A DNA stretch of 29,571 nt from Enterospora canceri. Its lineage: Eukaryota > Microsporidia > Enterocytozoonidae. Position 1 is the first letter of the stretch. Each line of letters starts with the position of its first letter. The position numbers and the translations under genes were made by a program. The notes beneath the pieces are model-generated. The model was not told the origin of the DNA and searched no databases. It saw only the letters and a program-made list of their open reading frames with translations. Shown here piece by piece: positions 7,356-24,432 of the stretch. The stretch covers positions 1 to 29,571 of the forward strand of contig LWDP01000037.1 of the NCBI GenBank assembly GCA_002087915.1, written 5' to 3'.

Positions 7356-7622
7356 ATGAACATTTTGGTGCTTCTACCACTGGCTCTACTGGCAGACAGG
7401 AATAAACCAAGTCTAATTCAGGCAATGATTAGAACAGTGGCACTGTTTCCAATGACAGTATTCAACTTTGCTCTCCACGCGTACTACAAAAGAAAGGGAA
7501 TTAGACCACAAACAGCAAGTAGACTTGTTTTTAATAATTTTATCAGGAGACTAACTAACAAGGATAATAAGGAGAGTAGTAAGGATAATGATAAGAGTAA
7601 CAAGAATGATAAGAATGACTAA
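7356..7622 (+). CDS. Small basic membrane-anchored protein, unknown
   Basis: An 88-residue protein. The ATG follows AACCCCTA, the local start motif, which supports it as a real gene. Residues 1-15 and about 24-42 are hydrophobic; the middle is basic with aromatic residues (HAYYKRKG). The last 20 residues are almost only Asn, Lys, Asp and Ser, encoded by AAGGATAATAAG-like triplets of the kind that build the spacers here. It could be a small organelle or ER membrane protein; no family is recognised. Confidence 0.6.
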   Translation: MNILVLLPLALLADRNKPSLIQAMIRTVALFPMTVFNFALHAYYKRKGIRPQTASRLVFNNFIRRLTNKDNKESSKDNDKSNKNDKND

Positions 7623-7709: not shown

Positions 7710-9503
7710 CTACTCAAACTCAATCACTTCATTGATCCTTAGAACTGCTATTGCTGCCTCTGTAGCTGCCTTCAATGCCTTCATTTTGTATCCAACTGGC
7801 TCCACCACCCCACTTTTCAGGTTGTCTCCTACGACACATCCACCCTCAGTGATGTTCACGCCACACGGTGCCCCTGTCTCCAGACTCATCCGCTCCATTT
7901 GGCCAAACACCTCCAATCCGCAGTCACCTGCATTCTCAACCAGCCCAACCACGATGTCTCGCAGTGCCTCTGCGTATTTGTAGATTGCGATGTGCTCTCT
8001 CATCTCAATGCGACTGGCATAGTCCCTGAGGTGGCTGTAGAGCATCTGCTCAATAGCACCGCCACCAGGTAGGACACTGACATTGCTAATGTTACTGTTA
8101 CTAGAGTTACTATTGTTACCCTTATTGTTACTAGTAATATTGTTACCCTTACTATTGTTACCCTTACTAGTAATATTACTACCCTTACTATTGTTACTAG
8201 TAATATTACTATTATTACTATTACTGTTACTACCCTTATTATTACTATCACCCTTACTATCACAACTGTTACTACCTACCACCCTCAGTACGTCATTCAT
8301 TGCCCTGTGTACCTCATCGCATATTTGTCTACTTCCTCCCCTGATCACCACTGTCTGAATCCCACAGTCGATCTCAACCATCCTGTGCTCCCCAAACTGC
8401 CTGATTCTGAATCCGCCTCTGACACTGCCACTTCCACAGGGTGCATCGTTGATCACTGCCCCAGTCGCACTCCGAATCAGTCGCAGATCGTCGACGTGGA
8501 CTCGTCGTACGACAGTGACGCCCAGTCTCACGCACTCCCTGACGCAGCAGTCGTCCATTCCACCAGTCAGCAGAATCAGCCTCGTTTTGACGCCGTCACC
8601 TACGATCTCATTCAGCCGCCTCAGAGTCAGCTCCCTCTCGCACTGCCCAATCTGGTCAGTCTCGTCCACTGCCGCGTACGCTGTTCCAAGAGGCATCTTC
8701 TCCCTCATCAGGCTGAAGTCACCCAGAAATATCCCAGTCTGTTTCGAACTGAACGAGTTCATCAGCTCATCGGCCACGGTGCAGTTCAGCACCAGTCCAC
8801 TGATCAGGTGGCTGTCACTGATTGATCCACCAGTCTGTTTGACTATTTTGATCAGTCTCGGATTGGTGATGGATGTGATGATGCTGGTGAAATGAGATAG
8901 GTGATCAGAGAGTATCTTAGAAGCAAGGGTGGAGGTGATGATGTTATAACTGTTACTATTGTTATTACTGTTACTACTATTGTTATTATTACTATTGTTA
9001 TTACTATTGTTATTACTAGTAACACTACTAACATTAGTAATGTTATTACTAGTAACACTGTTCACCCCCCTTGACATCATCTTCTTTACTATTTCGTTGA
9101 ATGCCATCCTGTACCCATTCACTACCACAGTTGGCTCCAGGCTGAACTTGTTGATCAGCTCCACCCCATTTGATATCAGTGCGTGGCTCAGCAGCACCAC
9201 TGTCGTCGTTCCGTCTCCAACAGATCGGTCCTGCTCAACTGCCACACTTCGTAGGATGTTGCAGACTGGCTCAGAGAGAAGAAGCGACTTGCAGATCGTA
9301 GCACCGTCATTTGTGATGAATACGTCACCAGTTGCATCAATGCACATTTTATCAAGGCCCATTGGGCCAAATGACGTCCTCAATGCCCGATGCATCGGCT
9401 GTAGATCAGTCAGGTGCTTCCTGTAGGCCGCCTTTCCGCCGTGGACACGCGTGTTGGTGAGGAGAGCAAAGTTCTCATGTGAAGTATCACGAGGAGAAGA
9501 CAT
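7710..9503 (-). CDS. CCT1: CCT/TRiC chaperonin alpha subunit with Asn-rich insertions
   Basis: One of eight subunits of the cytosolic chaperonin ring that folds actin and tubulin with ATP. The start at 9503 has the TTTTCACCC motif; the open frame extending upstream is spacer. Group II marks are GPMGLDKM at 46-53, the ATP-site ITNDGAT at 63-69 and GDGTTTVV at 96-103, LTGGMDD in the apical part (312-318), and PGGGA at 479-483. The alpha paralogue is shown by GLVLNCTVA (236-244), DFSLMREKM (262-270), the VVRRVHVDDLRLIRSATG region, and the end KSGVVEP...KALKAATEAAIAVLRI. Two Asn/Ser/Thr-rich insertions (149-190 and 410-476) have no counterpart in known CCT1. They lie near the equatorial-intermediate boundary and in the loop before PGGGA, and bring the length to 597 instead of about 550. 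Confidence 0.92.
   Translation of the reverse strand: MSSPRDTSHENFALLTNTRVHGGKAAYRKHLTDLQPMHRALRTSFGPMGLDKMCIDATGDVFITNDGATICKSLLLSEPVCNILRSVAVEQDRSVGDGTTTVVLLSHALISNGVELINKFSLEPTVVVNGYRMAFNEIVKKMMSRGVNSVTSNNITNVSSVTSNNNSNNNSNNNNSSNSNNNSNSYNIITSTLASKILSDHLSHFTSIITSITNPRLIKIVKQTGGSISDSHLISGLVLNCTVADELMNSFSSKQTGIFLGDFSLMREKMPLGTAYAAVDETDQIGQCERELTLRRLNEIVGDGVKTRLILLTGGMDDCCVRECVRLGVTVVRRVHVDDLRLIRSATGAVINDAPCGSGSVRGGFRIRQFGEHRMVEIDCGIQTVVIRGGSRQICDEVHRAMNDVLRVVGSNSCDSKGDSNNKGSNSNSNNSNITSNNSKGSNITSKGNNSKGNNITSNNKGNNSNSSNSNISNVSVLPGGGAIEQMLYSHLRDYASRIEMREHIAIYKYAEALRDIVVGLVENAGDCGLEVFGQMERMSLETGAPCGVNITEGGCVVGDNLKSGVVEPVGYKMKALKAATEAAIAVLRINEVIEFE
8076..8276 (-). repeat. Asn/Ser-rich coding repeat inside CCT1 (second insertion)
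   Basis: About 200 bp of degenerate TTACTATTGTTACCC-type units in frame encode 67 residues of Asn, Ser, Lys, Gly, Thr and Ile just before the PGGGA loop. The unit matches the TAGTAA low-complexity DNA of nearby spacers. Confidence 0.85.
8934..9059 (-). repeat. Asn/Ser-rich coding repeat inside CCT1 (first insertion)
   Basis: About 126 bp of GTTATTACTATT-type units encode a 42-residue Asn/Ser/Thr block between the first equatorial segment and the intermediate domain of CCT1. Confidence 0.85.
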
Positions 9504-9573
9504 GGGTGAAAATAGGCAAAAATATTCAGCAAAATAATCAGGGCAAATAGAAAGGGTAGTCACCCATAGCATT

Positions 9574-10228: not shown

Positions 10229-11088
10229 TTACAGGGTGAATAGGCGTAGGGTGGAATTGGAGTAGTCGATTTCGTAGTAGAAATCAACCACCCTGATGGT
10301 CCTGGGGTACTTCCAGCTGAAGTTGCCTATTTTGGTGCAGCAGGCTGCCTTGGTCTCGTTATTCGTGATATCAGAAATGGCACTGATTAGTTCAGGCAGA
10401 TTGGATGAGTCCTGGTCCATGCAGATGCGTCTGGCTAGTTCAGGAAGAAGGTGTCTCATTCGTAGGAGATGACGGTAGTCCAATTCACCAGAATAGTGGC
10501 GGATCAGGCTGATTATGGGATCAGGGTGATTNAGGGTGAATAGGCGTAGGGTGGAATTGGAGTAGTCGATTTCGTAGTAGAAATCAACCACCCTGATGGT
10601 CCTGGGGTACTTCCAGCTGAAGTTGCCTATTTTGGTGCAGCAGGCTGCCTTGGTCTCGTTATTCGTGATATCAGAAATGGCACTGATTAGTTCAGGCAGA
10701 TTGGATGAGTCCTGGTCCATGCAGATGCGTCTGGCTAGTTCAGGAAGAAGGTGTCTCATTCGTAGGAGATGACGGTAGTCCAATTCACCAGAATAGTGGC
10801 GGATCAGGCTGATTATGGGATCAGGGTGATTATGGGATCAGGGTGATTCAGGCTGTATCGAACTGATTCACCAGTGGAAATGTCAAACTGTAGGGGTGGT
10901 TCAGGTGGCTGATCATTCAGGTGCTCCTTGATTACGGCTGATTTGTGGGTGAATTCAAGGGGGAAGGGGGAATTTGACTGAATTTGATTCAATTTGGAGA
11001 GTTGGGCTGATTCGATCAGTGGGGCCAAATTGAGGTGGGAGACTGGCTGAAATGGGGTGGTAGAGGGTGGTGCACTGGATATTCTCAT
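10229..11088 (-). CDS. Hypothetical protein broken by an assembly duplication and a 17-bp tandem repeat
   Basis: The gene starts at the ATG at 11088, where GGCCCATTC matches the local start motif. The frame runs to a stop at 10813 inside a 17-bp tandem repeat (10815-10831 and 10832-10848). The rest of the protein lies in another frame and is present twice because of a 299-bp duplication around the N at 10532. Discounting the 300 bp and one 17-bp unit leaves 543 bp, exactly 181 codons, so the intended product is probably about 180 residues ending at 10229. Its first third is Pro/Ser-rich; the second half is helical with several cysteines and a basic aromatic end (about WKYPRTIRVVDFYYEI). I recognise no family. 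Confidence 0.55.
10233..10831. repeat. 299-bp perfect direct duplication around a single N (assembly join)
   Basis: Bases 10233-10531 and 10533-10831 are identical with only the N at 10532 between them. The left copy ends exactly where the first 17-bp tandem unit ends, so the assembler probably stopped at a fork caused by that short repeat. Confidence 0.9.
10815..10848. repeat. 17-bp tandem duplication, frame-breaking
   Basis: The unit ATGGGATCAGGGTGATT occurs twice in direct succession. Seventeen is not a multiple of three, and the second unit introduces a stop in the minus-strand gene; one unit alone would keep the frame open. Confidence 0.85.
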
Positions 11089-12926: not shown

Positions 12927-13571
12927 ATGCCCAGTAAAAATAAAGGCACCACTTTCATCCAGGACGAATACGAGGCAGAACAGGACGCAAGCAGGGAGGA
13001 GCACGTGGCAGGCGGACAGGAGGGCAGGCCTGAGATCGTCCCAGTCCTCCAGAATGTGGTTGCGACTGTGAATTTGAACTGCAAGCTCGATCTGAAGAGC
13101 ATTGCTCTCCATGCCAGAAATGCGGAATACAACCCAAAGAGGTTTGCGGCCGTGATAATGCGAATACGCGAGCCAAAGACGACTGCGCTGATCTTCGCGT
13201 CTGGGAAGATGGTGGTGACTGGCGCAAAGAGCGAGAAGGCGTCGCAGGTGGCGTCGCAGCGCTACGCCAAGATCATCCAGAAGCTCGGCTTCTCCGTCTT
13301 CTTCGACTCGTTCAAGATCCAGAACATCGTCTCGAGCTGCGACCTGAAGTTTGCGATCAAGCTCGAGGGCCTCGCCTACGCCCACTCGAACTACTGCTCC
13401 TACGAGCCAGAGCTGTTTCCTGGGCTGATCTACCGAATGGTGAAGCCTAAGATTGTTCTACTGATATTCGTTAGTGGGAAGATTGTGCTGACTGGGGCCA
13501 AGCAGCGTGAGGACATCTTCGAGGCATTCGAGAACATCTACCCCGTTCTAAGCCAGTACAGAAAGCTGTGA
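12927..13571 (+). CDS. TBP: TATA-box-binding protein
   Basis: General transcription factor that nucleates initiation by all three nuclear RNA polymerases. It has 214 residues: an acidic, variable N-terminal tail of about 37 residues, then two imperfect repeats of the saddle fold. The first runs from [15 protein letters not shown] (about 42-56) to AKIIQKLG; the second from [16 protein letters not shown] to the C-terminus. Each contains a matching strand-helix block ([17 protein letters not shown] and [17 protein letters not shown]). The phenylalanines that kink TATA DNA are partly visible ([16 protein letters not shown]). The start at 12927 is set by GCCCCTATG; the open frame before it begins with TTG and is not used. 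Confidence 0.96.
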
Positions 13572-16403: not shown

Positions 16404-17276
16404 ATGCTACCACTGTTGTTGAGGAGTGCCAGGATGCTCACGTTGGATGAGAGGTGCCAGCAGATTGGGATTGAGCCAGAAGTCTGTCTCAAATACACCA
16501 GCAGTGCACCAGAGGCACTGACGTGTGACGTGTATCGTGGATGCAACGATAACACGAGTGTTGGATCAGGGAAGATCAATGTTGTTGATCTGTTGCGGAT
16601 TGTGAAGGAGATCAAGGCAGGAAAGAAGGACGGTGAGAAGACTAAGAAGTGTGAGAGTGTGCCAGCAAGCACGGCTGGCCAGTGCACCTGTTCCAGTGCA
16701 CCAAATACCCAGTGCCACGACGTGACAGTCACGCGTGTCCAGTACTCGACAGTGAGCATTGATCGGCCTATCACGCTCTACCGTGAGATGACTACGACAG
16801 TGACACGTGTGCGACCAATCACGAACTACAAAGTCACCACGTTCACTGAGACAGTGACAGAGAGTAGGAAGGAGGATGAGAAGACGAAAACGAAGACAAC
16901 GACGAGTGATGAGGTGCCTAAGACAGTCACAGTCAGCCCAACAAGCAGCAAAACAAAACCAGTGGAGTCATCCACAAGTTATAGCTCAATTCCACCTGTG
17001 ACAGTGAATGAGACTGTGACCAAAACAGTGACCAAAACAAACCCAGGCGAGACCACACCCCAATCCACCCGCCCTAGTGCAGTCAGGCCATCCAGCTGTG
17101 AGCCTGGTAAACTCAGCTGTGATAAAACGTACAATATAAAACTAAGTAGGAAAGAAGTAGACAGACTCATGCGGAAGAAGAAGCGAGTCAGAACGAGGAC
17201 CATCGTAAACACGGTCTACCGTAAGAAGCGTGGGGACGTGAGTGACGAGACGGTGACAACCACGGTCTACAAGTGA
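16404..17276 (+). CDS. Thr/Val-rich cysteine-containing protein, probable surface or spore protein
   Basis: A 290-residue protein. The start has a short hydrophobic stretch (MLPLLLRSARML) that could be a weak signal peptide. Residues 18-101 carry about nine cysteines, including CTCSSAPNTQC. From about 103 to 220 it is dominated by Thr, Val and Ser in TVTRV-type repeats (VTVTRVQYSTVSIDRP and VTRVRPITNYKVTTF), with charged KTKTKTT linkers. The last 60 residues are strongly basic (RLMRKKKRVRTRT). The composition fits secreted microsporidian wall or polar-tube proteins, but no known family is recognised. It lacks the CCC start motif. It converges on the secreted family member at 17306 with 29 bp between stops. 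Confidence 0.6.
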   Translation: MLPLLLRSARMLTLDERCQQIGIEPEVCLKYTSSAPEALTCDVYRGCNDNTSVGSGKINVVDLLRIVKEIKAGKKDGEKTKKCESVPASTAGQCTCSSAPNTQCHDVTVTRVQYSTVSIDRPITLYREMTTTVTRVRPITNYKVTTFTETVTESRKEDEKTKTKTTTSDEVPKTVTVSPTSSKTKPVESSTSYSSIPPVTVNETVTKTVTKTNPGETTPQSTRPSAVRPSSCEPGKLSCDKTYNIKLSRKEVDRLMRKKKRVRTRTIVNTVYRKKRGDVSDETVTTTVYK

Positions 17277-17305: not shown

Positions 17306-18178
17306 TCATGAGACAGGGGCACTAAGAGCACCAAGCAGGTTGGGTGGAATTGGGTTGCTTTGAGGGCAGCCTGTGAGATACTCCACAACACGCCTGGAAA
17401 GTGACAGGATGAAATAGGAGTCCTTTTGGGTGATGCTGGTGAATTGGGCTGAGGTATCCACCTCGAGTTTGTGTCTGACGGTGTCGAGATCCCTACGAAG
17501 ATCACACGCGTATTTGGCATCGAATGTTTTGAGCTGTTTGTAGAACTCCCTAAAGAGCTTACGGATTCCATTGCAGGTGTTTTCAATTTCAGTGATGATC
17601 AGGTACTTCAATTTGCAGAGAATCGTGGACTCGGCTTCAGCAGCAGCTGCATTTGTCAGTTCAAGAAGATGGGTGAGCTGTTCGAATGTCTTGGCCTGGA
17701 GACCAAACTCGGTGTCCTCGACGATCTCAGCAACTTGGGAAGGATTTCCCTTTGCTACGTTTTCGATAGTAGTTGCCATTTCACTCTTGATTAGAGCAAG
17801 AATGGCCTTGGCCTGTTGCTCAAGACGATCGAATTCAGTTACAACACACTTTTCAAGGGCAGATTGGAAGACAGTCAGGCGCAGATTTATCAGGGCGATG
17901 ATTTCGGCCTCGAGTTTCGTGATGAGGCCTTTGACCTCGCTGTACGCAGCTGCATTCAGGGCAGCCAGAGACGTGTGAAGCGTAGTAAATGCATTCTCAC
18001 CTGCCGCATGAGACGCAGTAGTCAGGTTCGTCTGCATGTTCTTGAACAGCAGCTCGATGTCCTTGACTGCATTGTTGGCCTTCTCGTTCGGGACACAGTC
18101 TCCGTTCTGCAAGGGCTGGCACGGGTTGCCGTTGCGGTAGCAGAGGACTCCTAGGAATCGGCTCAGGGCTATCAGCAT
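17306..18178 (-). CDS. Secreted helical protein, family member A
   Basis: Start chosen at the inner ATG (18178) because the shared TATA element is then 20 bp away, exactly as in the two related genes; an ATG two codons upstream (18184) is also in frame, and a third at 18229 lies beyond the TATA. The 290-residue product opens with a signal-peptide-like stretch (MLIALSRFLGVLC), then CxxNGxxC and CVPNEKANNAV. The rest is mostly long amphipathic helices rich in Ala, Leu and Glu. It shares with member C the blocks EDTEFGLQAKTF, LFREFYKQL and KDSYFILSLSRRVVEYLTGC. Function unknown; secreted, spore or host-facing role inferred. Confidence 0.8.
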   Translation of the reverse strand: MLIALSRFLGVLCYRNGNPCQPLQNGDCVPNEKANNAVKDIELLFKNMQTNLTTASHAAGENAFTTLHTSLAALNAAAYSEVKGLITKLEAEIIALINLRLTVFQSALEKCVVTEFDRLEQQAKAILALIKSEMATTIENVAKGNPSQVAEIVEDTEFGLQAKTFEQLTHLLELTNAAAAEAESTILCKLKYLIITEIENTCNGIRKLFREFYKQLKTFDAKYACDLRRDLDTVRHKLEVDTSAQFTSITQKDSYFILSLSRRVVEYLTGCPQSNPIPPNLLGALSAPVS

Positions 18179-18197
18179 ATGCATAAAATAGAAATTG

Positions 18198-18206
18198 TTT
18201 TTATAC
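18198..18206 (-). promoter_or_regulatory. TATA element of family member A (GTATAAAAA)
   Basis: On the minus strand GTATAAAAA ends 20 bp before the first base of the inner ATG. The same nonamer at the same distance is found before the genes starting at 23247 and 24404, while housekeeping genes here lack it. Confidence 0.7.
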
Positions 18207-18211
18207 CTGAC

Positions 18212-18238
18212 ACGAACAAATTGTTGCATTTTGTTCGT
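18212..18238. promoter_or_regulatory. Inverted repeat upstream of the TATA element (member A)
   Basis: ACGAACAAA (18212-18220) is a perfect inverted match to TTTGTTCGT (18230-18238) with a 9-nt loop. It lies 5 bp beyond the TATA element. A similar repeat with the same CGAACAAA half lies 4-5 bp beyond the TATA of member B, making it a candidate transcription-factor site. Confidence 0.5.
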
Positions 18239-18368
18239 CTATTAAGCATAATGGACCTAATTGGAAAGTGCCTATATTCTATGTTCCTAAGAACTCCTAT
18301 CCTTATGAATAACCCTTTCACTCTACAAATATAATTGTCATCTTGTTGTTTTTGTCATTTTTCCCCCT

Positions 18369-21300
18369 ATGATTAACAATATCAAGTTTCTCTGGTACAC
18401 GAAGGAGGAGGTTGTTAGGCTGTCTGAGAAGGAGGTGAAGGTGGCTGCGTCTCTCGACAAGTTCGGCCACCCTGTTCCAGACGGAATGTACGATCTCGCA
18501 ATGGGCCCCTGTGATTCCGACCAAGTCTGCAAAACGTGCTCGTTGGACTGCCTCCAATGCCCAGGCCACTTTGGTCACATCCCAATTCAGCCTGTGATCA
18601 ACCCACTCTGTTACGAAATGCTCTTTCTGATTCTCAGGGCGTCCTGCTCAAACTGCTTCAAACTCAAAGTCTCCCAAAATGAGAAGTTGAATTTCTACCT
18701 CGAATTGGAACAGTGCGAGACCAATCTGCGTACGACCAAGGCGGAGACATTCCAGGAGTTTGAGGAGATTCTGGTTGGTGGTGAGCGTAGAAACGGCCAC
18801 TGCGAGGAGGAGCACCACTCTGTGGCTCTGACCTGGCTCAGAAAAGCAAGCACCAGGGGCAGATGTCCTTTATGCAATGGGACGAACAAAAAGTACAAGA
18901 AGGGCGCCAATATGCGCATTCTGTGCGATGATCCGATGGATGGGCTTGTGACTGTGGGAAACCGTGACGTGATGAAGGACGTGAATGCGACCTACGCCAA
19001 TGACAAGGTGATATTTGACAAGCTGCTGAAGATTGGGGATGACGAGAAGGGTGGAATTGGATTTCTGTTTCTTGAGGTGCTTCCAGTCACCCCCAACAAA
19101 TTCAGGCCAATTAAGAAGAGAGACGGGTTTGTGTTTGAGAATGCCACGAATGCGCAACTGAACTCGATTCTGACTGCGTCCCTGCTCTCTGAGAGGGACG
19201 AGAAGTACTCGGCCGAGTTGCAGAGCCTCGTTTCGCTCTACTTCGACTCGGCCAGGGACCAGAAGCAGCAAGGAATCAAGCAGCTGCTTGAGAAGAAGGA
19301 GGGTCTCTTCAGACAGAACATCATGGGAAAGCGAGTCAACTACTCGGCCAGATCGGTGATATCCCCTGATCCGTGGATTGGAACTGGTGAAATTGGGGTT
19401 CCACTCGTCTTTGCGAATCAGCTCACGTTTCCTGAGCGAGTCAACTCCACCAACCTGAAGAAGATGCAGGAGCTGGTGACTGGTGGCCCATGCGCGTATC
19501 CTGGGGCCAATTTCGTATTGGAGAAGACTGATTCCCAGCAGAAGCTGCTGAGTCTCAAGGTGCTCTCCAAAAGCAGAAGGAGGCAGATTGCTGCTCGATT
19601 TGCCACTTCCAGGTGCGAATTCACTGTCTACAGGCACCTGGTCACTGGAGACCGTGTTTTGGTCAACAGGCAGCCATCTCTTCACAAAATGTCGATGATG
19701 GGCCACCGTGTCCGAGTTCTCAAGAACGAGAAGACGCTTCGAATGCACTACGTGAACTGTAAGCCGTACAACGCCGACTTCGATGGTGACGAAATGAACA
19801 TCCACTTCCCACAGTCGCATGCTGCCCAGGCTGAGATTGAGGAAGTCTGCCTGACTGATTTCAACTTTCTGGTTCCGTCTACGAATGAGCCAATTCGTGG
19901 ACTGACCCAGGACCATCTGGTTGTTGCTGCTGTGATGACAAGCAAGAATGAGATCTACGACCGTGATGAATACCACCATATTGTCCATAGTGCACTCTAT
20001 GAGGAAGTTGATGGCCCCCTTGTTTTCGTGGATCCATTTCTGACTGTCTCAGATGGTGAATCAAGGCGTGTCTTCTACAGTGGCCTGAACGTAGTCAGCA
20101 CCGTCTTGGTGAATGTGACTAAGGGGCTTCCAACAAGCCTAACTCACCGATTCAAGTCTAAAATAACAGGGGAGACTGTCATATTTCGTGAATCAGAGAT
20201 GCTTACTGGGCTACTGGATAAGAACACCCTTGGAACAGCAGTTAACTCGTTGATTCATGTTTGTGGGAAGCTATTTGGCTACAAAATATGCAATAGGCTT
20301 CTTACGATATTTGGGAGAATGGTGAATGGGTACATGGCATTACGGGGATTCACATTGGGCCACGACGACTTGCTTCTCGATGAAGAGGGGGAAAAGAGGC
20401 TTCAGAACGAGCTACTGGTCAGAAACAGGCGTAGTAGGGTGGAATCAGAGAACAAGAGCAACATTCAGGTGCTGTTGAGGGAGACAAACGGGGCATTGAG
20501 TGGGTTACAGGGGCTTCTGGCGAGTTCAATGCAGAAGTCGTTTTTAGGCAACAACATTCTGGCGATGGTGCAATCAGGGGCAAAGGGATCAATGGTGAAT
20601 GTGTCACAGATTTCGATATGTCTGGGGCAGCAGGAGCTGGAGGGAAAGAGAGTTCCAGCACAGGCGAGTGGGAAGTCACTTGCCTGTTTTGAGGCTGATG
20701 AATATTTCACGAGTCCAGCAGCAGGTGGATTTGTCTACGAGAGGTTTCTGACTGGGCTGTCTCCTGGCTCATTCTACTTCCATTGCATGGCAGGAAGAGA
20801 GGGGCTGATTGATACGGCCGTGAAAACAGCAAATTCAGGATATTTGCAAAGGTGTCTGGTGAAGCATCTTGAGGGAACTACGATCTGCTACGATGGGACT
20901 GTGAGGAATCACAGGAGAATAGTCCAATTTGAGTACGACGGTGATGCAGATCCAGGCGCATCTGTTGGGGTGTTAGCAGCTCAGAGCATAGGAGAGCCAT
21001 CTACGCAAATGACACTAAACACGTTTCACCTGGCTGGAGTTGCTGGGAAGAATATGACATTGGGGATTCCGAGACTCAGGGAGATTGTGATGGTTGCATC
21101 TAAAAACATAAAGACGCCCATAATTAAAATGGCAGTGGATGAGAAGATGGGGATGAAACTGGAACAGGTGTTCAGGCGAGTGACTGCATCTGACTGTGTG
21201 GGGCAGCTGTGGGCTGAGGAGCAGTTTGTGAAGGAGAGGAATGCGGTGGCTGATGGATTCGTCAAGCGTGTTGTGGTCACATTCAGAATCCTTGATGAGG

Positions 21301-22199
21301 AGGGTGCCGTTGTTCATGCAATTGACAATTTGTTTGTCAGTAAGCTTAATCGAATGATCAAGGTTAAATCGACTTCTTGTGGCATTGAAATGAATGAACA
21401 AGATGAACAGGTTCATGAGACGAAGAAGGAGGAAAATAGCGATGACGAGAGCACCGATGTGGATGATACCACGGTGGATGGTGAGACTGAGACCAACAAG
21501 ACGCCCCTGAGTGAATCAGGTGATTCAGATTCATCGGAATCAGAACATTCTCATGGTTCCAGTAACCTCATCCATCTCAGAATGACCAAAAGTGGCCTAT
21601 ATTCCCTGGAAATCAACTTTCAGCCTACGATGACTCAGAATATTCTTCCACTTGCAGAGGCTGTTCTAAGCAAAATTGTGATACGAGAGATTCCTGGGTT
21701 TGCTGGTGGCAAAATGGACACTACCCGACCCAACCACCCTGGTCCAGCCACATTCTACCTTGATGGATCCAATTTCACCACACTTTTCAATATCACCCTG
21801 ATATCCAATAATCCCGATGTATTCTACAATTCGTACTCAAATGACATTCACTCAATTTGTGGCCATTTTGGAATAGAAGCAGCTAGAAATGTGATTGTGG
21901 CTGAAATTGAGAGCGTATTCGATGTCTATGGAATCAGAATAGAAACAAGGCATCTTGATTTGGTAGCAGACTATTTGACAAGGGATGGATTGTATCAGGC
22001 ATTCAACAGGCAATCATTTGACATGGATGATTCAATATTGCAGAGGATGTCATTTGAGAGCTGTTTTGAGAGAGTGAAGGATGCCAGTCTCTTTAGGCTG
22101 AGTGACAATATGAACAATCCTAGTGCAAACATTTGTGTAGGGAATATGATTCATAATGGAACAGGCTGCTTTGATCTGCTGTATGATTTGGACATATGA
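18369..22199 (+). CDS. RPA1: RNA polymerase I largest subunit
   Basis: Catalytic subunit of the polymerase that makes ribosomal RNA in the nucleolus. The 1276-residue chain starts with the clamp zinc region (CKTCSLDCLQCPGHFGHI, about 56-73). It contains the lid/rudder region with GKRVNYSARSVISPDP and the active-site metal loop NADFDGDEMNIHFPQ (from residue 468, Asp 470, 472, 474). Further on are the funnel, the bridge and trigger region (PGASVGVLAAQSIGEPSTQMTLNTFH), and a C-terminal jaw/cleft segment. Its identity as Pol I rather than Pol II or III is supported by the acidic Asp/Glu/Ser insertion at about 1006-1064, which sits where yeast Rpa190 has its DNA-mimicking expander, and by the absence of heptad repeats. 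Yeast Rpa190 is 1664 residues. CCCCCT precedes the ATG. Confidence 0.95.
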   Translation: MINNIKFLWYTKEEVVRLSEKEVKVAASLDKFGHPVPDGMYDLAMGPCDSDQVCKTCSLDCLQCPGHFGHIPIQPVINPLCYEMLFLILRASCSNCFKLKVSQNEKLNFYLELEQCETNLRTTKAETFQEFEEILVGGERRNGHCEEEHHSVALTWLRKASTRGRCPLCNGTNKKYKKGANMRILCDDPMDGLVTVGNRDVMKDVNATYANDKVIFDKLLKIGDDEKGGIGFLFLEVLPVTPNKFRPIKKRDGFVFENATNAQLNSILTASLLSERDEKYSAELQSLVSLYFDSARDQKQQGIKQLLEKKEGLFRQNIMGKRVNYSARSVISPDPWIGTGEIGVPLVFANQLTFPERVNSTNLKKMQELVTGGPCAYPGANFVLEKTDSQQKLLSLKVLSKSRRRQIAARFATSRCEFTVYRHLVTGDRVLVNRQPSLHKMSMMGHRVRVLKNEKTLRMHYVNCKPYNADFDGDEMNIHFPQSHAAQAEIEEVCLTDFNFLVPSTNEPIRGLTQDHLVVAAVMTSKNEIYDRDEYHHIVHSALYEEVDGPLVFVDPFLTVSDGESRRVFYSGLNVVSTVLVNVTKGLPTSLTHRFKSKITGETVIFRESEMLTGLLDKNTLGTAVNSLIHVCGKLFGYKICNRLLTIFGRMVNGYMALRGFTLGHDDLLLDEEGEKRLQNELLVRNRRSRVESENKSNIQVLLRETNGALSGLQGLLASSMQKSFLGNNILAMVQSGAKGSMVNVSQISICLGQQELEGKRVPAQASGKSLACFEADEYFTSPAAGGFVYERFLTGLSPGSFYFHCMAGREGLIDTAVKTANSGYLQRCLVKHLEGTTICYDGTVRNHRRIVQFEYDGDADPGASVGVLAAQSIGEPSTQMTLNTFHLAGVAGKNMTLGIPRLREIVMVASKNIKTPIIKMAVDEKMGMKLEQVFRRVTASDCVGQLWAEEQFVKERNAVADGFVKRVVVTFRILDEEGAVVHAIDNLFVSKLNRMIKVKSTSCGIEMNEQDEQVHETKKEENSDDESTDVDDTTVDGETETNKTPLSESGDSDSSESEHSHGSSNLIHLRMTKSGLYSLEINFQPTMTQNILPLAEAVLSKIVIREIPGFAGGKMDTTRPNHPGPATFYLDGSNFTTLFNITLISNNPDVFYNSYSNDIHSICGHFGIEAARNVIVAEIESVFDVYGIRIETRHLDLVADYLTRDGLYQAFNRQSFDMDDSILQRMSFESCFERVKDASLFRLSDNMNNPSANICVGNMIHNGTGCFDLLYDLDI

Positions 22200-22212
22200 A
22201 ATTAGTCAATTT

Positions 22213-23247
22213 TTAGTTGCATATTCCTTGGTGTTTCTTGCTTCCATACGATGTGGCGTATGTTGCAGACCATACTGCAATTACATTGGTTATTTTGACA
22301 CTGATTTCCTTCACAATCACACAGAGACGGGCTTTCAGTTCCTCAACATTGCCTGTTGCTACTGCATTTGAAGTAAGAATGTTCTGTTCCAGTACACCAC
22401 AGATATCAACCAGGAGACACTTCTCTGTTTTGGCTAGAATTGTAGTCAAATTGGCGTAGAATTCCTCAAAGAGATTCCTCAGGTCATCTTGAATGATGCA
22501 ATCCTGATTTCTCATTCCTGCTATCAATTTGTGCTTGCATTTATCATGTTCGCTACCCATTCTGGTTTGTATCTTCCTTGCTACCTTTTTTACATCTTTG
22601 AGATCATCTCTTTCATCACTCTCATCAGGTTCACTGTTCTCTCTTGAACCATCATTTGATCTTGGATGATCATTTGGCCTACCGTTTCTCCTTGATCTTG
22701 AATCGTCATTTGGTTTAGAAACATCTCTAGGTTCAGCAATCAGTGCAGAGACCTCGCTGGCTAAGGAAGTTCTAAGTGATTCCATTTGGTTGCTGATAAG
22801 AGAACTGAGATCACCATCCTTCTTGCAACAAAGCACTTCTACGGCATCCTCCAATTCATCAACCAATGCCTTGATTTCACTCTGCTGCAAAGAGAAGCAT
22901 TTGTTGATGGCTGCCTCAATAAGCTCCTCCATCTCATTGCAGTTGATCTGATTTCCTTCGCATATTACATTCTCAGTTGATTCGTAGGCCTTACAGATCC
23001 TGACCTGGAGCTCCTTGATCAGGACGGAAATCATCTGTGAGAGATACGCGATGGTGGTCGTGCAGTCGCCCTCCCTGTCTCGTGATTCCTTCTTGTACTT
23101 TGGCTTCTTCCTGTAGGGAATACACCTTTCAGTCGAAGAGGAGTCGCTGTCGTAGCAGTAGCTCACTGCATCCCTGCTGGTCAGGTCCTGCCTGTTGGCA
23201 TAGCCTTCGAATGCAAAGCAGAGCAATGCGTGAATCATTGTCAACAT
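22213..23247 (-). CDS. Secreted helical protein, family member B
   Basis: A 344-residue product with a good signal peptide (MLTMIHALLCFAFEG) and then a Cys/Ser/Tyr-rich and basic segment, followed by helical regions. In the middle (about 170-220) is a hydrophilic, low-complexity linker rich in Asp, Ser, Arg, Asn and Pro (KPNDDSRSRRNGRPND). The C-terminal part contains LRNLFEEFYANLTT, matching LFREFYKQL and LFKEFEKN of members A and C, followed by another long helix. About 14 cysteines suggest disulphides outside the cytosol. It converges on RPA1 with 13 bp between stops and shares the promoter of A and C. Divergent paralogue; function unknown. Confidence 0.75.
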   Translation of the reverse strand: MLTMIHALLCFAFEGYANRQDLTSRDAVSYCYDSDSSSTERCIPYRKKPKYKKESRDREGDCTTTIAYLSQMISVLIKELQVRICKAYESTENVICEGNQINCNEMEELIEAAINKCFSLQQSEIKALVDELEDAVEVLCCKKDGDLSSLISNQMESLRTSLASEVSALIAEPRDVSKPNDDSRSRRNGRPNDHPRSNDGSRENSEPDESDERDDLKDVKKVARKIQTRMGSEHDKCKHKLIAGMRNQDCIIQDDLRNLFEEFYANLTTILAKTEKCLLVDICGVLEQNILTSNAVATGNVEELKARLCVIVKEISVKITNVIAVWSATYATSYGSKKHQGICN

Positions 23248-23266
23248 ACTTTATGCTTCATTTCTT

Positions 23267-23275
23267 TTTTTATAC
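23267..23275 (-). promoter_or_regulatory. TATA element of family member B (GTATAAAAA)
   Basis: Minus-strand GTATAAAAA ends exactly 20 bp from the first base of the ATG at 23247, the same spacing as in members A and C. Confidence 0.7.
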
Positions 23276-23280
23276 TTATA

Positions 23281-23306
23281 CGAACAAAATACACACATAT
23301 TTTGTT
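23281..23306. promoter_or_regulatory. Inverted repeat upstream of the TATA element (member B)
   Basis: AACAAAATA (23283-23291) pairs perfectly with TATTTTGTT (23298-23306) across a 6-nt loop, preceded by CG so that the left half reads CGAACAAAATA. Position relative to the TATA matches the repeat of member A within 1 bp. Confidence 0.45.
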
Positions 23307-23414
23307 TATCTGATTAAGCTTATTTCATAGTTAATTCATTCATATTGCCCCTGTATTCTACTTCATATTGTTTCATTCATTTACTAATTGGTAGTGTCTT
23401 CATTTCCACTGGTC

Positions 23415-24404
23415 TTATCTGTTACAATAGTGGTATTGCTCCTGATAATCCTGATGATACTGTTGTGGTGCTGTTAGAAATTGTACTGGATAAACTCCTT
23501 CAACGTATCCACAGCCTGTGAGTCTCTCAATCAGCCTCTTTAGGATCGAAACCACCAAATAGGCGTCTTTTGAGAGAATGCGATCAATGGCATCAGAGAT
23601 GTTGTTTTCCAGGTGCAATTTGGTCTGTTCAATCTGCTTCTTTTGCTGTGCTACGAAAGCAGCATCCAATGCTCGTGCATTCTTCTCAAACTCCTTGAAC
23701 AGCTTTGCAATGGCTGCGCTAATCAGGGCCTTTTCATTTGCAATGCACTGGGCAATTTTAGAGAGGATGTCCTTCTCCTGTTTTGCGTAGGAAGCAAGCA
23801 AGGCACCTGTGATTAAGTTGGCTGCTGCAAATGCATCAGATTGGTATCCATTTTGGGTGTCCTCGAGATCGTTTTTAATGGCAGGTGGCGATTCCTGGGA
23901 GAGAGCGCTGATTTTGGCAGCGATGTCGTCTTTGGCCTGTGCAAGGGCTGCTGCTCCCACGGTACGTGACTTGGCGAAATCAGCTCGAATTGCATGTTTG
24001 ATGCAAAAGAGAAGGGAAATCAGCCTCTCTTTGACAAGGGCAAGGACGTCCTGTTCGAGATGCTGAGCAAGGGCGTAGAGTTCGGAAGCAGTTCGTACGT
24101 CGATTTCAAGGAGTGACCTGTAGAGCTCACGAAATGCGTCATTGATTTCACGAATAACAGCCCTGTACAGGTTGTCATTCAAACTCTGTAAAATGAGGCC
24201 AATTTCCCTCAAGGCCTGGCAAGCAGCCTCAGATGGAACACACTCATCTGGTGCAATGGGCTCAGGTGGGCAGTAGTCGGGCCTACATGGCTCAAAGCAT
24301 GGGCTGTAGCACGGGTTGCTCAGTACAGCAGCGGCCCTGACCCGTTCAGGTGGGCAGAAATTCGTGCATGTTAGCGAAAGGATGTGCTTTGTGAACCCCA
24401 ACAT
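23415..24404 (-). CDS. Secreted helical protein, family member C
   Basis: Start chosen at the inner ATG (24404); another in-frame ATG lies two codons upstream as in member A, and the open frame beyond that runs through the TATA element. The 329-residue product begins with a moderately hydrophobic leader (MLGFTKHILSLTC), then a Cys/Pro-rich segment (about 15-52) with SPCFEPCRPDYCPP, then CVPSEAACQAL. Long Ala/Leu/Glu/Lys helices follow. Blocks shared with member A include EDTQNGYQSDAF, LFKEFEKNARALDAAF and KDAYLVVSILKRLIERLTGC. The C-terminal tail is Tyr/Gln/His-rich (QQYHQDYQEQYHY). It lies head to tail with member B, 167 bp upstream of it. Probably secreted; function unknown. Confidence 0.8.
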   Translation of the reverse strand: MLGFTKHILSLTCTNFCPPERVRAAAVLSNPCYSPCFEPCRPDYCPPEPIAPDECVPSEAACQALREIGLILQSLNDNLYRAVIREINDAFRELYRSLLEIDVRTASELYALAQHLEQDVLALVKERLISLLFCIKHAIRADFAKSRTVGAAALAQAKDDIAAKISALSQESPPAIKNDLEDTQNGYQSDAFAAANLITGALLASYAKQEKDILSKIAQCIANEKALISAAIAKLFKEFEKNARALDAAFVAQQKKQIEQTKLHLENNISDAIDRILSKDAYLVVSILKRLIERLTGCGYVEGVYPVQFLTAPQQYHQDYQEQYHYCNR

Positions 24405-24423
24405 ATGCATAAAATCACGTTTA

Positions 24424-24432
24424 TTTTTATAC
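24424..24432 (-). promoter_or_regulatory. TATA element of family member C (GTATAAAAA)
   Basis: Minus-strand GTATAAAAA ends 20 bp from the first base of the inner ATG at 24404, as in the other two members. No matching CGAACAAA inverted repeat is seen here; instead ATGCATAAAGCATG lies just beyond. Confidence 0.7.

Follow-up and report, generated by a model that had tools for sequence, protein, structure and literature searches.

The window analysed here is a whole contig of 29,571 nt, numbered along its forward strand, from a genome of 2,242,678 bases in 75 contigs. Three ORFs on its minus strand, here called genes A, B and C, begin with an ATG followed by a Leu codon. Counted from this Met-Leu ATG, gene A (17306..18178) encodes a protein of 290 aa with a Cys-containing N-terminus, gene B (22213..23247) a protein of 344 aa with a stretch rich in Asn, Asp, Arg and Ser, and gene C (23415..24404) a protein of 329 aa. 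The gene for the largest subunit of RNA polymerase II (RPB1), which has a CCCCC start motif and the Pfam RNA_pol_Rpb1 domains 1-5, is located on the plus strand between A and B (18369..22199). The same strand carries the gene of a canonical TATA-binding protein (TBP; 12927..13571; Pfam TBP, E 2.7e-68). It matches the PDB chain named ECU04_1440 protein (E 1.3e-100), from Encephalitozoon cuniculi. Together with CCC before most of the sampled starts and with a named homologue of C only in Ecytonucleospora hepatopenaei, this match makes a microsporidian origin of the genome likely.

Several further features were noted in the window. A Thr/Val-rich ORF of 290 aa without a Pfam match (16404-17276) faces A and has neither CCC nor TATA just upstream. 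A chaperonin gene of the TCP-1/cpn60 family with long Asn/Ser-rich inserts occupies 7710-9572. At 691 and at 10532, a single N separates the two copies of an exact direct duplication, of 241 and 299 bases, respectively; these sites are therefore likely scaffolding joins of overlapping contigs, and the ORFs spanning them (593-1276 and 10229-10759) are in part artefacts. The translation of an aquaporin-like ORF (L054) suggests a similar duplication join.

A pattern search located three copies of GTATAAAAA in the window, all on the minus strand: at 18198..18206 before A, at 23267..23275 before B and at 24424..24432 before C. The initial annotation had placed this element on the coding strand of all three genes, and this was confirmed; it occurs nowhere else in the window. 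The gap between the box and the Met-Leu ATG (first base at 18178, 23247 and 24404 for A, B and C, respectively) is 19 nt in each case, which agrees with the previously proposed distance of exactly 20 bp if one counts from the final A of the box. TATAAAAA thus has its first T at -27 relative to this ATG, and TATAAAA at this position agrees with the microsporidian TATA-type core promoter, in which TATA[AT]A[AT] begins some 25 to 32 nt before the start codon. It should be noted that the spacing is exact because Met-Leu was chosen as the start. The starts of A and C both contain ATGCATATG, as had been described, and if its first ATG is used, the distance becomes 14 bp in A and C versus 20 bp in B. 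The CCC start motif had been reported missing from the three genes; indeed, CCC was absent within 40 nt upstream of their starts, and both CCC and GGG were absent within 15 nt. Outside the box the upstream sequences of A, B and C differ in large part, and A and C have TTTTATGCATATG in common. The motif TTTATGC/GCATAAA lies between the box and the ATG in all three genes; it was rejected as their start-site element, since before other ORFs it is no more than mildly frequent.

The three genes had also been described as related and secreted. The protein comparison supported the relationship for A and C, which are paralogues (28% identity, E 3e-35), but not for B, which gave E values of 0.005 against A and 0.56 against C and, in an hhalign comparison with the A/C family, a probability of 5% (E 0.007, 36 columns). 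Consequently, B was rejected as a proven paralogue. A homology search with B recovered only its own protein, and the whole-genome protein search gave nothing but B itself with B as the query and recovered A with C as the query. A further search, with an alignment of the four-member A/C family, recovered only A. The only named homologue of C, the hypothetical protein EHP00_1634 (P0001) of Ecytonucleospora hepatopenaei, is 47% identical to it over 94% of C; a full-text literature search for this locus tag returned no paper, and the spore-surface proteins in PMC8874471 carry numbers of another kind. The Pfam scan of A, B and C gave no family above the cut-off. According to a passage of PMC3486916, however, polar tube proteins are difficult to recognise from sequence. 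As for secretion, A and B passed a crude test for a hydrophobic N-terminus, whereas C and its closest relative failed it. The AlphaFold model of C (mean pLDDT 64.3) consists of two predicted helices of ~110 residues and a low-confidence head containing Cys residues. The model of B, folded alone, is of low confidence (mean pLDDT 47.7) and helical, with an outline resembling that of C. The predicted helical hairpin of C and B is only a hint, and a structural role of these proteins in the spore would be a guess.

The whole genome was then scanned for the box upstream of an ATG, as the initial annotation had proposed. The pattern GTATAAAAAN{17,21}ATG was found at 15 places versus 2 for the reversed control, and the same 9-mer at 3-7 nt from an ATG at 4 places versus 3. 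In four simulated full-size genomes, a box with a 19-nt gap to an ATG was found 0 or 1 times on both strands. Eight of the 15 places are gene-like starts and seven are not starts. The eight belong to A, B, C, a histone-like gene, a gene for a thioredoxin-domain protein, a 260-aa ORF without a family, NOG1 and thymidylate synthase. For the looser box [CG]TATAAAA at 18-22 nt from an ATG, 57 places (the 15 included) were counted versus 52 for the reversed control, which is no clear whole-genome excess; at 8-12 nt the counts were 44 versus 36.

The coding side was inspected at 37 of these 57 places, namely the 15 exact-9-mer places, 20 others taken mostly in contig order (one from C67), the C25 place (L041) and one place in L036; only about 50 codons were judged in each of the 20 further stretches. 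This yielded 17 gene-like starts, 16 non-starts (the seven among the exact-9-mer places and nine in which a stop follows in no more than 12 codons) and four undecided places. Acceptance was based on a PDB match for L065 and L072, a weak PDB match for L070 and a Pfam match for L061. L058 and L074, which gave no match, were accepted as open frames with CCC, and L057 and L075 were accepted by eye, having an open frame, Met-Leu and a partly hydrophobic beginning. For the 65-aa ORF of C25, the Pfam scan gave no family. The undecided places (L060, L066, L068 and that of L036) have open frames without CCC, and the start is strongly hydrophobic in L068 alone; if counted, they would add one start at -27, one at -26 and two at -28, and four to the CCC-less group.

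The TATA of the 17 gene-like starts lies at -27 in ten, at -26 in four, at -28 in one and at -29 in two. With A, B and C left aside, it lies exactly at -27 in 7 of 14. The ten starts at -27 are those of A, B, C, the histone-like gene (L001), the 260-aa ORF (L004), L058, L065, L072, L074 and L075. Position -26 is found before the genes of the thioredoxin-domain protein (L002) and NOG1 (L008), before L057 and before the C25 ORF, position -28 before thymidylate synthase (L014), and position -29 before an HMG-like gene (L070; E only 0.011) and a ferritin-domain gene (L061). Besides A, B and C, the exact 9-mer stands at exactly -27 before the L001 gene and the L004 ORF. The L001 protein matched Pfam Histone and CENP-T_C, both above the cut-off, and may be histone H4. 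The boxes of the Trp-tRNA synthetase (L065) and Lys-tRNA synthetase (L072) genes, GTATAAAAG and CTATAAAAA, have one base different and are placed exactly at -27, and NOG1 and thymidylate synthase have the exact 9-mer 1 nt off this position. The ORF start behind the TATA at -29 in L061 (L061:31-183) encodes a ferritin-like domain (Pfam PF00210, E 2.4e-5). As the box is located at or near -27 before unrelated genes, the equal spacing in three genes does not require a special class. CCC within 15 nt was present at 8 of the 17 starts, which indicates that TATA and CCC are not mutually exclusive.

ORFs were also collected from the window and 20 other stretches, 229 kb in all, giving a rough gene set of 166 ORFs of at least 120 aa, with overlaps of <60 nt allowed. 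In 108 of them, CCC lies no more than 15 nt from an ATG located among the first 40 codons. The other 58, about a third of the sample, are CCC-less, as are A, B and C. TATA at -24 to -31 was found in eight ORFs, three of which are A, B and C. CCC accompanied TATA in 2 of these 8 versus 106 of the 158 others (p 0.022, A-C included).

The same or nearly the same box distance before everyday genes makes an ordinary promoter likely. We consider it quite probable that GTATAAAAA is the ordinary core-promoter TATA box of this genome rather than a switch reserved for surface proteins. Its identity as a promoter TATA box is supported by the fixed position, the excess of the 9-mer (15 versus 2) and the canonical TBP gene, and the promoters of A, B and C would be ordinary in kind. 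The TBP encoded in the same window would bind the box, which would set the transcription start a few bases before the start codon. Passages of PMC2803860 give 5' leaders of <7 nt for Encephalitozoon cuniculi and also cite 5' ends found by other authors far from the start codon in some genes. Leaders as short as those of E. cuniculi, combined with a fixed distance from TATA to the transcription start, would result in a nearly fixed TATA-to-ATG distance in any gene.

Similar arrangements have been described in other microsporidia. In Nosema ceranae, according to parts of PMC2685015, TATA motifs peak near -27 upstream of starts and occur at -25 to -32 in 12.5% of 280 genes versus 4.1% at random. 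Sections of PMC3486916 report TATA upstream of 194 T. hominis genes and conserved positions of the TATA and CCC motifs between N. ceranae and T. hominis, and an excerpt of PMC3726280 reports that TATA is likewise enriched in N. apis. A term search of the main text of a T. hominis transcriptome study (PMC4654818) gave no hit for TATA, CCC or promoter. Judged by these excerpts, the genome studied here resembles N. ceranae, T. hominis and N. apis in that a minority of genes have a yeast-type TATA while many starts are of the CCC type, and resembles N. ceranae in that TATA begins near -27 from the start codon (PMC2685015). It differs from the three in that A, B and C share the longer core GTATAAAAA and in that TATA starts are fewer (8 of 166 in a rough ORF set). 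The CCC at 108 of the 166 sampled ORFs resembles the microsporidian CCC/GGG-like start signals described in part of PMC2803860, from which A, B and C differ in having no CCC or GGG within 15 nt.

Some findings count against the reading of the box as an ordinary promoter element. As TATA starts are rare (8 of 166), three of them within 7 kb would need descent or shared control, and a descent of B from A or C would be conjectural. In addition, the TATA ORFs carry CCC less often and, with A-C left aside, hydrophobic N-termini more often than the others, and the looser box shows no clear excess at either distance.

Shared ancestry, by which duplicate genes would have kept their upstream region, is compatible with an ordinary promoter. 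As paralogues, A and C likely also share the promoter by descent, and the presence of TTTTATGCATATG in both is consistent with this. B adjoins C, and its low-confidence model has two long helices like that of C. On the other hand, the similarity of B and C is not significant (see above), the upstream regions have large parts outside the box that do not agree, an inverted repeat is present upstream of A and B but not of C, and the same kind of box and position is found before unrelated genes. As the explanation for all three genes, common descent is possible but somewhat unlikely.

The inverted repeat just mentioned suggests another source of control, namely a factor that would bind this palindrome and regulate A and B, the TATA spacing being incidental. 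A perfect inverted repeat, ACGAACAAA-n-TTTGTTCGT, was found on the minus strand (18212..18238), separated by 5 nt from the box of A that follows it, and its near copy, AACAAAATA-n-TATTTTGTT, lies 7 nt upstream of the box of B (23283..23306); the region upstream of C has no repeat of this kind. Besides these two places in the window, 10 further repeat-like places were noted, sometimes between divergent genes. The pattern AACAAAATN{4,10}WTTTGTT gave 14 hits at 11 places versus 5 hits for the control. The stricter pattern ACRAACAAAN{4,14}TTTGTTYGT, which was written after the set of the looser pattern had been seen, occurred at 11 places in the whole genome and at none in the reversed control or the four simulated genomes. 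Eight of these places precede an ORF start by 12-79 nt, two are inside ORFs (C22 and C34), which counts against such a factor, and C75:41077 is without a clear neighbouring start. The ORFs identified by Pfam next to the repeat encode an RPN1/RPN2-domain protein, a DEAD helicase, an aquaporin-like protein, Fcf1 and GPI2, the last two forming a divergent pair; 4 of the 10 ORFs scanned gave no match. A V-ATPase E subunit ORF (Pfam) adjoins a near copy. Standing before several housekeeping ORFs, the repeat is no mark of surface genes.

The half-site TTTGTTYGT was found 3-9 nt before TATAWA at A, B, C25, C34 and C52, which would suit such a factor; the pattern TTTGTTYGTN{3,9}TATAWA gave 8 hits (C8 and C24 too) versus 5 for the control and is hardly above it. 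TTTGTTT/AAACAAA half-sites are frequent in the last 60 nt before the sampled ORFs. To our eye, the half-site resembles forkhead sites. Fork-head-like motifs upstream of T. hominis genes are reported in a passage of PMC3486916. The literature searched contained no composite promoter of palindrome and TATA, and a search on forkhead and sporogony returned nothing on this point. The inverted repeat near gene starts is a possible candidate regulatory element, and a palindrome-binding factor as the main control of A and B seems unlikely given the lack of the repeat at C. It is doubtful that A and B could belong to a small regulon in which such a factor would act beside the TATA at -27, with the CCC-less TATA genes as its sporulation-stage secreted branch.

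Promoters reserved for surface or invasion proteins, and probably stage-regulated, had been suggested in the initial annotation; such a class would be marked by TATA without CCC, as in A, B and C. We examined this using the hydrophobicity of the first residues as a proxy for signal peptides. At a threshold of 1.5, hydrophobic N-termini were found in 5 of 8 TATA ORFs versus 22 of 158 others (p 0.003, A-C included) and, with A-C left aside, in 3 of 5 versus 22 of 158 (p 0.026); at a threshold of 2.0 the latter comparison became 2 of 5 versus 15 of 158 (p 0.085). The first proxy used gave 2 of 8 versus 19 of 158 with A-C included (p 0.27), which speaks against the class. CCC-less ORFs had hydrophobic N-termini in 14 of 58 cases versus 13 of 108 for those with CCC (p 0.05; p 0.11 without A-C). 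Within the CCC-less ORFs, TATA added little (2 of 3 versus 10 of 52 without A-C, p 0.12). Among the 17 TATA starts, the proportions were 4 of 9 CCC-less and 1 of 8 with CCC (p 0.29), or 2 of 6 and 1 of 8 without A-C (p 0.54); the other CCC-less starts hydrophobic by the proxy are those of L075 and of the thioredoxin-domain protein (L002). As several proxies and thresholds were tried post hoc, the nominal significance of the smallest p values is not to be relied on. Any enrichment of hydrophobic N-termini in TATA genes is weak and varies from test to test, p ranging without A-C from 0.026 to 0.54 by set and proxy. A secreted-like gene of the CCC class was also observed in the window: the 88-aa ORF at 7356-7622 combines a strongly hydrophobic N-terminus with a CCCC start motif. 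The housekeeping test went against the proposed class, since the box is located at or near -27 before histone-like, tRNA synthetase, NOG1 and thymidylate synthase genes. The part of the proposal that identified a promoter TATA box is supported and likely right, while the evidence lends no support to a promoter class dedicated to surface or invasion proteins, which appears quite improbable.

A chance origin of three A/T-rich matches with equal spacing can be dismissed for the 9-mer. TATAAAA within 25 nt before an ATG is indeed common (438 in the genome versus 476 in the control), but the 9-mer averaged 0.11 copies in 100 dinucleotide shuffles of the window, none of which reached the three copies found, and the simulated genomes gave the same answer.

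The ordinary TATA box also bears on where the proteins A and C begin. Their frames are open upstream through the box to earlier ATGs at 18229 (A) and 24443 (C), so that a mechanical gene caller would place both starts upstream of the box; if the box is used, the mRNA would not contain these ATGs. Leaders of <7 nt as in E. cuniculi, taken together with TATA at -27, would put the start at Met-Leu or at the ATG that precedes it by 6 nt. The first residues of the E. hepatopenaei relative are Met-His, and those of A and C would be the same if translation began at this preceding ATG. The box would thus place the start of A and C at Met-Leu or close to it and not at the beginning of the longer ORF, and the TATA position may in this way aid the choice of start codons. 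The exact TATA spacing would be a matter of core-promoter geometry and, probably, of near-absent 5' leaders and would not mark a gene class, and the inverted repeat may be a candidate regulatory element in a group in which few have been described.
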